The notes below the pieces were generated by a model, which was not told the origin of the DNA, did not search any database, and was given only the letters and a program-made list of their open reading frames with translations. Shown here in pieces: positions 23,686 to 27,474 of a stretch of DNA of 35,422 nucleotides (positions are counted from its first letter, which is position 1; each line of letters starts with the position of its first letter). A program made the position numbers and the translations under genes. Source of the stretch: an uncultured Geobacter sp. (GTDB lineage Bacteria; Desulfobacterota; Desulfuromonadia; Geobacterales; CAIOGM01); contig CAIOGM010000020.1 of the NCBI GenBank assembly GCA_903857795.1, positions 1 through 35,422 on the forward strand, written 5' to 3'.

Positions 23686-26070
23686 CTATTCTGCCCAGAA
23701 ATCGGCTACTTCACTCAGAATACTGCCGGAGACGAGCTCGGTGGCGTCCGACACGAACCAGTCGGACGGCATCGACCGGCTAAACGCCGGCTCCAGAAAT
23801 CTCCTGTCCATCAGGACGACCACCCCCCGATCCGTTTCGGAACGGATGACCCTGCCGGCGGCCTGAATCGCCTTGGCCATGGCAGGGATGGTGTAGGCGT
23901 ACTCAAAGCCTGCGGCATACTTCTCCTGGTAATATCCCCTCATCTGCTCCCGTTCGAGATTGTAGGTGGGCAAAGGCGGTCCGACCACGAAGGCGCCGAT
24001 GACCATCTCGCCGGCGTAATCCATCCCCTCGGAGAGTGATCCCCCCTGCACGGCAAAGACGATGGTCGGCTCGCTCCCGCTCCGGAGATTTTCGACGATG
24101 GCCTCTACACCGGCGGCGTTGATACCCCGCTCCTGACGGGCCAGGGTGAAGCCGGCCGGCGGGTCAAAGAGGAGGGCCACCCGTTCCAGGAAGTCGAAAC
24201 TGGGGAAGAAGACGAAGTAGTTCCCCCTGCGCAGGGCCGTAATTCTCTGCACCGCTTCGGCTATCTTGCCGTAATTGCGCTCCCGGTTGCGGTAGAGGGT
24301 GGAGATCTGCGGAATGATCAGGAGCTTTCGCCGCTCTTTCGGGAAGGGGGTGGTGAACTCCGCAGTACTCACCTTTGCACTGTTCAGGCCGGAAAGACGG
24401 ATGTAATAGTCGAACGGTTTCAGCGTCGCCGAGAACCCCGCCACCTGCTCGTACTCCTTGTAGCACTCCTTCAGCTCTGCCGAGGCGTCGCTGCAGGTTA
24501 TTTTCACCACGCCGCCGGTGGGATGGGGGTGAAAGGTGGTGAAGAACTCGCGCCGGTCGGGACCGGCGGCGCACTCCAGGCTCTCGGTGAATTCGCCCCA
24601 GGCGTAGCAGAGTCTCAGGATCACATCCTGGGGCAGGAGCTCCGGAGCCGAGTCGAGGTAGCGGGAGAGGAAGAGGGAGAGCCGGGAGTGCTGGTTGATA
24701 AACAGCTCCACGGGTGGATCGATCCGCCGGGGTTGAGTGAACCCGCTCTTCCCGCAGGCGGAGAGGGTCCCAAGACAGTCGTCCAGGAGTTCCTCCGCCT
24801 CTGAGCAGAAGCGGCCCTGCAGTGCCCGGATTTCATCTCGCATCTTTTCCAGCGGCTCAGATGAGAGCGCCGGCGAATAGTACTCCATGGCCCGGGCCGG
24901 AAGATTGTGAGCCTCGTCGATGACCAGGTTGGGTTTTCCGCTCTGATCGACAGCCATCCCCGACATCCGGGCCAATGAGGAACGTGGAGCGAAGACATAG
25001 TTGTAGTCGCAGATGATGACGTCTACTTCACGGGCGGCGTCGATCTGCAGTTCAAACGGGCAGAGCCGGTACTTCTCCCCCAGGTCGCGAAAGGTGCGGG
25101 CCTTCAGCCTCCTCTTCTTTGCCAGCAGGCCGAGAATCCCCCCCTCCTGAACCTTCCCGTAGTAGTTGCGGGCATACTCGCACTGCTCCGGAGTGCAGAG
25201 CGGCTCGTCCTTGAAGCAGATCTTGCTCTTGGCGGTGATGGAGAGGGATTTGAGCCGTGCCCCTGCCTCCTGAAAGCGGGAGAGCGCATCCTCGGCCACG
25301 GAGTGCTGACTGTTTTTCGGCGTGACGTAGACGACCCGCTCCCCGCGGCTCAGGGCCTCCTTCAGCACGGGATAGAGCACGCCAACGGTCTTCCCCAGCC
25401 CGGTGGGGGCCTGGATGAGCATCGGCCGTTTCTCTCCCATGAACTTCTCGATCGTTGCCATCAGTTCGATCTGTCCGGGGCGCGGCTGGGGGAAGGGGAA
25501 GGCAAAGCTTGAGGCGACGCTGCGGCGCCGGGCGGCCCGCCTCTCGGCCTGCCGCGCCTCCACGACCAGCTCGTCGAGACGAAGCTCCAGCCACTGTTCG
25601 TAGCGGGGGAGATCAAGCGGGATTTCCAGGTCACTGCTGTCACCGCTGCGGGTGGAGACCAGATGAAAGGAGAGGGCGGGAAGCTGCCGCAGTTGCCGCC
25701 ACTGGAGGTAGCCGTAGGTCAACAGCTGCAGGGAGTAGGGGTGCTCCAGCGGATCCCCTGCCAGGCGATACCGCAGCTCCCGGATGTCAGACGTACTCTT
25801 GATCTCCTCGATCCTGGGAGGGATGGAGCGAAATATCCCGTCCATCCGGCCATCCACCCGAAATGAGTAGCACTCTCTCTCGAACAGGCCGCTTATGGCC
25901 ACTTCCGCCTGATACGTCGGGTCTGACGCTGCTCTCCGCTTCTGTACCCGGAGGTGGATCTCCTGGCCGTCGGCTGTGGAGCTGCCGTAACCCGAATGCA
26001 GTTCGATACTACCGGATCGAGGGGAGGGGAGGGCGAACTCGCGCAGCGGTAGGGTAATCAGTTTTGTCAT
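23686..26070 (-). CDS. PD-(D/E)XK nuclease fused to XPD/DinG-like Fe-S helicase
   Basis: 794 residues. The N-terminal part (about 50-125) carries a RecB/Cas4-type nuclease signature: D73/D77 in RVDGRMDGI, E89-I-K91 and Q115-xxx-Y119. The helicase follows: Walker A APTGLGKT (221-228), a four-cysteine Fe-S cluster pattern C285, C292, C297 and C337, DEAH at 385-388, and C-terminal motifs QGGSLSEGMD and QAAGRVIRS. XPD/DinG helicases move 5' to 3' on single-stranded DNA. The linked nuclease suggests a single protein that both unwinds and cuts, as in Dna2/AddB-type end processing (inference). The SD is weak. It follows a small membrane protein gene by 24 bp and converges with the GntR gene. No Cas genes are nearby. 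Confidence 0.88.
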   Translation of the reverse strand: MTKLITLPLREFALPSPRSGSIELHSGYGSSTADGQEIHLRVQKRRAASDPTYQAEVAISGLFERECYSFRVDGRMDGIFRSIPPRIEEIKSTSDIRELRYRLAGDPLEHPYSLQLLTYGYLQWRQLRQLPALSFHLVSTRSGDSSDLEIPLDLPRYEQWLELRLDELVVEARQAERRAARRRSVASSFAFPFPQPRPGQIELMATIEKFMGEKRPMLIQAPTGLGKTVGVLYPVLKEALSRGERVVYVTPKNSQHSVAEDALSRFQEAGARLKSLSITAKSKICFKDEPLCTPEQCEYARNYYGKVQEGGILGLLAKKRRLKARTFRDLGEKYRLCPFELQIDAAREVDVIICDYNYVFAPRSSLARMSGMAVDQSGKPNLVIDEAHNLPARAMEYYSPALSSEPLEKMRDEIRALQGRFCSEAEELLDDCLGTLSACGKSGFTQPRRIDPPVELFINQHSRLSLFLSRYLDSAPELLPQDVILRLCYAWGEFTESLECAAGPDRREFFTTFHPHPTGGVVKITCSDASAELKECYKEYEQVAGFSATLKPFDYYIRLSGLNSAKVSTAEFTTPFPKERRKLLIIPQISTLYRNRERNYGKIAEAVQRITALRRGNYFVFFPSFDFLERVALLFDPPAGFTLARQERGINAAGVEAIVENLRSGSEPTIVFAVQGGSLSEGMDYAGEMVIGAFVVGPPLPTYNLEREQMRGYYQEKYAAGFEYAYTIPAMAKAIQAAGRVIRSETDRGVVVLMDRRFLEPAFSRSMPSDWFVSDATELVSGSILSEVADFWAE

Positions 26071-26094: not shown

Positions 26095-26715
26095 TTACGC
26101 CGATTCTCTCTGATTCTCCATGGTCAGTGGAGAGGGACGCCGCCCGGCGGATCGAACATAACGGACCACCATGGGGACGATGAACATGACAGCGAGGACG
26201 ATGAGAGTCGTACTGTTCGGGTCTTGAAAGTAGGAGTTCAGGCGCAGGGTCGTAAGCGCGATGACGGCGAAATAGAGCATATCTCCCGCAATGGCGATGG
26301 CCCACCCCGAAAGAAATCCGTGCCCCGCAGCCAGCGCCGTGGCGCGCCCGGTCATCGGATCCACTCCGAAGGCAACCATGATAAGGGTCAGGGGGCCGGC
26401 ACCGGCGCCGCTAAACTGGACGCTGCGGGCCGTTGCCGTCTTGAATGCCGCTTTCAGGCGGGCGGGAAACGGAATCCTCCGCCCCACCGCAGCGAGAAGT
26501 CGCAGAATCGGCTCAAAGGCAATGGCCAGGAGCAGATCCGAGACCAGGTAGAGCCCGGCGGTGACGGGCCAGGCCAACCCCTTGGCACTGGCGAGCAGAA
26601 CGCCCGCAGGGATCCCCCCCCCGACCGGCAGGAGGAAGAGTTTCAGCACGGGAATTATGGCGGAGGTTGACTGGTCCAGGCTGAGAATCTGCCGGGACAG
26701 CGGAAGCAGGGGCAT
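26095..26715 (-). CDS. Small integral membrane protein of unknown function
   Basis: 206 residues with about five hydrophobic segments (near 18-40, 48-70, 103-120, 128-155 and 163-185). Conserved-looking turns are FLLPVGGGIPAGVLLA and SGAGAGPLTLIMVAFGVDP. The opening segment recalls the putative small multidrug export family, but the match is too weak to name it. SD GGAG lies 5 bases before the ATG. It ends 24 bp before the nuclease-helicase start and is probably cotranscribed with it. It is divergent from a Uma2 gene. Confidence 0.65.
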   Translation of the reverse strand: MPLLPLSRQILSLDQSTSAIIPVLKLFLLPVGGGIPAGVLLASAKGLAWPVTAGLYLVSDLLLAIAFEPILRLLAAVGRRIPFPARLKAAFKTATARSVQFSGAGAGPLTLIMVAFGVDPMTGRATALAAGHGFLSGWAIAIAGDMLYFAVIALTTLRLNSYFQDPNSTTLIVLAVMFIVPMVVRYVRSAGRRPSPLTMENQRESA

Positions 26716-26844
26716 GGGGACTCCAATACATTTGAGACCTTGAACGCAGATTCTGCTGGGTGCCGGATAACATATGAATCTATATACAGGTTTCTGCCAG
26801 GAGTGTCTATGGGCGATTTCCGTGGTGCGACTATTCTTGATTCT

Positions 26845-26852
26845 GCTATACT
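26845..26852 (+). promoter_or_regulatory. Extended -10 promoter for the first Uma2 gene
   Basis: TGC immediately before TATACT (26847-26852) gives an extended -10; the -35 is weak. The start would be near 26859, 34 bases before ATG 26893. Confidence 0.45.
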
Positions 26853-26892
26853 CCCCCGCGTTACATCCCGATTAATCTTTGAGGAGGAGCAG

Positions 26893-27474
26893 ATGGGACC
26901 ATTGGCTCTAAAATTGGAGGAGCGATTCACCTATGGCGATTATCTGATGTGGGATGATGACGAGCGCTGGGAACTGATCGACGGAGTTCCTTACAATATG
27001 TCACCGGCGCCGCGGGTGGCACACCAGCGCATCCTCATGGAGCTTGGCAAGCAGGTGGCGGTTTATCTGACCGGTAAACCCTGTCAGATCTTTCCCGCCC
27101 CCTTTGACGTCCGGCTCCCCGAATCAGACGAAAGTGACGAGTTGGTGGAAACAGTGGTGCAGCCGGACTTGTCAATTATCTGCGACAAGGGAAAGCTTGA
27201 CGAGGCCGGGTGTCGTGGGGCGCCTGACCTGGTGGTGGAGATCCTCTCTCCCGCAACGGCCATGAAGGACCTGAAAGTAAAGTTTGTCAGGTACGAGCGG
27301 GCTCGGGTGCGGGAATACTGGATCGTCGATCCAACGGGGAAAACAGTCCAGATCTTCACCCTCGGTGCGGATGGCCGTTACGGTCGGCCACAGGTCTACA
27401 TCGACGGGGAGACGGCGCCCGTGGGGATTTTCCCTGATCTGGAGATCGACCTGACCGCTGTCTTTGCGGAATGA
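26893..27474 (+). CDS. Uma2/DUF820-family putative endonuclease (first copy)
   Basis: 193 residues from ATG 26893. The frame continues upstream to 26740, but ATG 26893 has a strong SD (GAGGAGGAG) and matches the start of the second copy (MGPLA). The Uma2 core is present: Y-x-x-W-DD-RWELIDG, YNMSPAP, QPD (D92), PDLVVEILSP (E116), a lysine near 128-130, and EYWIVDP. The fold is PD-(D/E)XK-like; the family is widespread and often duplicated, with unknown substrate. An upstream extended -10 is seen. The gene lies between a divergent membrane protein and the membrane fusion protein gene. Confidence 0.87.
   Translation: MGPLALKLEERFTYGDYLMWDDDERWELIDGVPYNMSPAPRVAHQRILMELGKQVAVYLTGKPCQIFPAPFDVRLPESDESDELVETVVQPDLSIICDKGKLDEAGCRGAPDLVVEILSPATAMKDLKVKFVRYERARVREYWIVDPTGKTVQIFTLGADGRYGRPQVYIDGETAPVGIFPDLEIDLTAVFAE

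Follow-up and report, generated by a model that had tools for sequence, protein, structure and literature searches.

The window, the whole 35,422-nucleotide stretch of DNA analysed here, contains on its minus strand at positions 23686-26070 an intact EndoDinG-type gene with a 794-aa product. This open reading frame had been called in an earlier note that left the strand unstated; it is present and intact. The features of the gene and of its upstream neighbor are as follows:

23686..26070, minus strand: EndoDinG-type nuclease-helicase gene (794 aa), an intact open reading frame assigned from a full-length sequence match to 9kqh_A and from the predicted fold
25486..26070, minus strand: predicted N-terminal PD-(D/E)XK nuclease domain (residues ~1-195), from invariant residues in 49 sequences, the structural model and Foldseek
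23758..25485, minus strand: XPD/DinG SF2 helicase (residues ~196-771), from Pfam DEAD_2 and Helicase_C_2 and from likeness to archaeal XPD in both sequence and fold
25387..25410, minus strand: Walker A region APTGLGKT (residues 221-228), with G224, G226 and K227 invariant
25060..25218, minus strand: Fe-S cluster domain (C285, C292, C297, C337), present in 36 of the 37 aligned members
24907..24918, minus strand: DEAH motif (residues 385-388), with D385, E386 and H388 invariant
26095..26715, minus strand: upstream membrane-protein open reading frame (206 aa), 24 bp away, with no Pfam match; judged to be an unrelated chance neighbor

The helicase part of the protein was recognized by Pfam as Helicase_C_2 (E 2.8e-35) and DEAD_2 (E 9.1e-10), and at the N-terminus no Pfam nuclease model gave a match. 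A model of the N-terminal nuclease domain, built from residues 1-200 aligned with 48 relatives (pLDDT 91.6), gave Foldseek matches to 9kqh, the Cas4-type SSO0001, RecE, lambda exonuclease, AddA/AdnA and EXO5. The RecB/Cas4-type triad proposed previously was upheld in part: D77, E89-x-K91 and Q115-xxx-Y119 are invariant in all 49 aligned N-terminal domains, which come from several phyla, but D73 varies freely among them. Two further active-site residues, H39 and E56, which were absent from the earlier list, are likewise invariant in this set. The Fe-S cysteines are present in 36 of the 37 aligned full-length members, and the sole exception, from Furfurilactobacillus, has TVND at those sites. 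A chance pattern is ruled out because the active-site and Fe-S residues are conserved down to ~20-30% identity. The Pfam helicase, the predicted nuclease fold and the conserved residues thus bear out the claim that a nuclease, an Fe-S motif and an XPD-like helicase are joined in one bacterial polypeptide. The Furfurilactobacillus protein (L177) has retained the nuclease residues and lost all four Fe-S cysteines, and a uracil-DNA glycosylase-family gene adjoins its gene.

The closest solved structure is 9kqh, deposited as 'Finegoldia magna DinG in complex with ssDNA and ADPNP'. The 9kqh_A chain matches the 794-aa protein end to end by sequence (residues 2-771, E 1.6e-78), and the full-length model (pLDDT 89.8) matches 9kqh with an E value of 8.7e-54 and a TM score of 0.83. 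The likeness includes the nuclease domain, but the two proteins are only ~26% identical over the structural alignment, and the F. magna protein falls in the Bacillota branch. A 2025 review of DinG-like proteins defines the EndoDinG subgroup by an N-terminal PD-(D/E)XK domain with the residues H, E, D, E and K and by a CCCC Fe-S motif, and gives the DinG of Bdellovibrio bacteriovorus HD100 as its type example; endonuclease activity is reported there for B. bacteriovorus as unpublished data only (PMC11981726). All of these signatures, both the five active-site residues and the CCCC motif, are present in the window protein, as are the motor domains MD1 and MD2 (by Pfam DEAD_2 and Helicase_C_2 and by fold). 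The nuclease-helicase combination is a known one, since 9kqh matches end to end and the published EndoDinG features are all present; sequence and modelling together identify the protein as an intact EndoDinG member with an established architecture, not as a new combination. In a comparison with Bdellovibrionota members other than HD100 (identity up to 59%), no architectural difference from the type was found. The existence of the EndoDinG family is published and its biology is nearly unstudied; the window gene is a clean example of it.

Eukaryotic Dna2 also combines a PD-(D/E)XK nuclease, an Fe-S cluster and a 5′-3′ helicase in one chain. Its helicase belongs to SF1, and its Fe-S cluster lies within the nuclease domain. 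In contrast, the window protein has an SF2/XPD helicase, and its four cluster cysteines are all located in the helicase, at residues 285-337, while the nuclease domain holds one cysteine only (C67). The description of the protein as Dna2-like therefore stands as an analogy only. The anti-phage protein Hna shares with the window protein a DinG-like SF2 helicase and a PD-(D/E)XK domain in one chain. However, the nuclease of Hna is C-terminal and Hna is without an Fe-S cluster (PMC13381803), whereas the window nuclease is N-terminal and the CCCC motif is present; the fold match to Hna is also weak (TM 0.43, vs 0.83 for F. magna DinG). The ExoDinG proteins of Staphylococcus aureus and Bacillus subtilis resemble the window protein in that a nuclease precedes the DinG helicase, but theirs is a DEDD-type 3′-5′ exonuclease and not a PD-(D/E)XK nuclease. 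The CasDinG of type IV-A CRISPR systems has a vestigial Fe-S domain without the cluster cysteines (PMC11981726), whereas the window protein retains all four, and no csf-like partner was found among the window proteins scanned.

Searching one genome per species returned at least 584 loci. Other DinG-type helicases may be among them, as the patterns used for the search lie in the helicase. The best 80 of these at least 584 loci came from Desulfuromonadia, Bdellovibrionota, Melainabacteria, Legionella, Bacillota, Acidobacteriota and Asgard archaea, and the plasmid collection added Burkholderiaceae. The distribution is patchy: EndoDinG was present in 20 of 98 genomes of the class to which the window belongs, all from one order, and three genomes of the same genus were without it. 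The scan of viral contigs found no relatives; the matches in the phage collection were to unannotated records, which may be host contamination. In the tree, the window protein was placed inside a Desulfuromonadia clade (support 100/100) among sequences from Bdellovibrionota, Legionella and Melainabacteria. The grouping with Bdellovibrionota was seen with members other than the HD100 type protein. One Burkholderia row of the tree (branch length 10) came from a wrong reading frame, and the local placement of the window protein does not depend on it; in the corrected frame (start 4962), the active-site residues of this sequence are conserved.

The genes next to EndoDinG are not repair genes in the window itself or in most of its order, and within the order they vary by genus. 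Topoisomerase I overlaps the EndoDinG start in one genus, the gene before EndoDinG in Pelotalea is TamB, and one Desulfuromonadaceae contig (74% identical) has DinB 6 bp upstream of EndoDinG. Unrelated neighbors were found at most EndoDinG loci, above all in Bacillota. Coupled repair partners recur elsewhere, as the following raw locus counts indicate. FAN1 was located upstream of EndoDinG in 4 of 4 Burkholderia examined; in L183, the locus that was read, the two genes overlap by ATGA. At four Bdellovibrionota loci (L103, L104, L106, L115), a gene for the TIGR04122 'ligase-associated DNA damage response exonuclease' lies upstream and overlaps the EndoDinG start; three of the four were scanned with the TIGR04122 model, and all three scored above the cut-off. 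At eight loci, from Legionella, Bdellovibrionota and Melainabacteria, a gene encoding DEDDh and GIY-YIG domains lies downstream and overlaps the EndoDinG end; the genome that contains the window has no full-length homologue of this partner, and partial domain matches only. Some of the Legionella plasmid loci are surrounded by dinB, an SOS peptidase, Ku and UdgX. Because the coupled partners in these separate lineages are repair nucleases, the context points to DNA damage repair, and this identity of the partners in several lineages is the modest new point of the analysis. The Legionella plasmids at L094, L095 and L187 carry repair islands with EndoDinG, the DEDDh/GIY-YIG nuclease, umuD and Y-family polymerases.

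Taken as a whole, EndoDinG is probably an ATP-driven Fe-S SF2 helicase with a PD-(D/E)XK nuclease that acts as an unwind-and-incise repair enzyme and whose membrane-protein neighbor in the window is coincidental. The enzyme would load on ssDNA at a damaged or branched structure, and it is predicted from family knowledge and structures to move 5′-3′ on ssDNA and to unwind the duplex. The N-terminal domain would cut the strand during unwinding, and EndoDinG would thus be an unwind-and-incise enzyme for replication-blocking damage such as crosslinks, flaps and stalled forks. For the window protein itself, we infer the 5′-3′ polarity, the nuclease activity, the substrate and the repair role, and the gene context lends its support to a general role in repair.

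Three other functions were weighed against this repair role. That EndoDinG works together with the membrane protein beside it, perhaps in taking up DNA or at the membrane, is hardly credible. The spacing of 24 bp between EndoDinG and the membrane open reading frame given in the earlier note is correct, and the two genes are on the same strand; co-transcription in the window genome is possible and is given no functional weight. When the coordinates were compared, 17 genomes of the order besides that of the window were found to carry both genes, on separate contigs or at least ~62 kb apart and never adjacent. In the order, the membrane gene occurs without EndoDinG in another ~16 genomes, EndoDinG occurs without the membrane gene in 4, and no homologue of the membrane protein was found near EndoDinG in any other locus examined. 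A conserved linkage of the two genes is rejected, and the neighbor is coincidental. As to a role as an anti-phage or anti-plasmid effector that degrades invading DNA in the manner of Hna, Hachiman or CasDinG, we consider it unlikely. In its favor are the one-chain union of nuclease and DinG-like helicase in Hna (PMC13381803), the patchy distribution, a Uma2-family candidate-defense gene two genes away, and a match of the window protein to the PADLOC model for type IV-A associated DinG (351 bits), though this model appears to cover the DinG family broadly. These points are opposed by the reversed domain order, absent Fe-S cluster and low TM score of Hna, by the empty viral-contig scan, and by the PADLOC survey of 60 close same-strand neighbors, in which no defense family recurred. 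The only PADLOC model to match more than one of the 60 was DEDDh, which corresponds to the exonuclease domain encoded by the GIY-YIG gene, and no constant defense partner was seen among these neighbors.

A main role in the processing of RNA or R-loops, with the repair links being secondary, is very unlikely, more so than the defense role. A Listeria DinG of the exonuclease type acts on unprocessed rRNA (PMC12774634), and CasDinG unwinds RNA/DNA hybrids (PMC10450177). However, the PD-(D/E)XK fold of EndoDinG groups with DNA nucleases, and its coupled partners are DNA-repair nucleases. The survey of neighbors essentially returned what the earlier note had set down as evidence against its own membrane proposal, a widespread fusion with no constant neighbor; it disposes of the membrane hypothesis and speaks for a role in DNA damage repair.

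Within the repair role, the translationally coupled partners suggest that EndoDinG may be the motor and scissors of a bacterial module for crosslink or blocked-fork repair in which the nucleases are interchangeable (FAN1, a beta-CASP-type exonuclease, or DEDDh/GIY-YIG), with a logic parallel to that of eukaryotic FANCJ/FAN1/SNM1. This extension is tentative, and we regard it as somewhat doubtful. The part of the review that deals with EndoDinG describes no such module (PMC11981726). If the links to FAN1 and the beta-CASP exonuclease are functional, bacteria would possess a compact equivalent of the crosslink repair of eukaryotes, one that lends itself readily to genetic tests.

Regulation of EndoDinG by the SOS response was considered and dropped. 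With what we take to be the Geobacter-type LexA box pattern, no box was found upstream of EndoDinG, and the 8 one-mismatch matches in the window are at the level of chance (9.3 expected). RecA is present in the genome, and no LexA was found in it with TIGR00498; LexA may be divergent or absent there. A sequence resembling CTGTATAT, at positions 26774-26789 of the window, occurs once in the genome and was discarded as a candidate site because TIGR00498 found no LexA.

Other genes of this genome are of separate note. The membrane protein upstream of EndoDinG represents a conserved orphan family that has no Pfam model and occurs in 34 of 58 genomes from the order, for the most part at 61-74% identity; in a rough hydropathy scan it showed several hydrophobic segments compatible with 4-5 helices. 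The Uma2-family gene (Pfam E 7e-34), a putative endonuclease gene at 26740-27474, lies two genes away and, being on the plus strand, runs opposite to EndoDinG; it corresponds to the PADLOC candidate PDC-S03. A second DinG-type gene (contig C68, L002:40-2433) encodes an N-terminal HNHPSGH motif similar to that of RadC/JAB proteins, and it fits the 'RadC-like DinG' subgroup of the review (PMC11981726).
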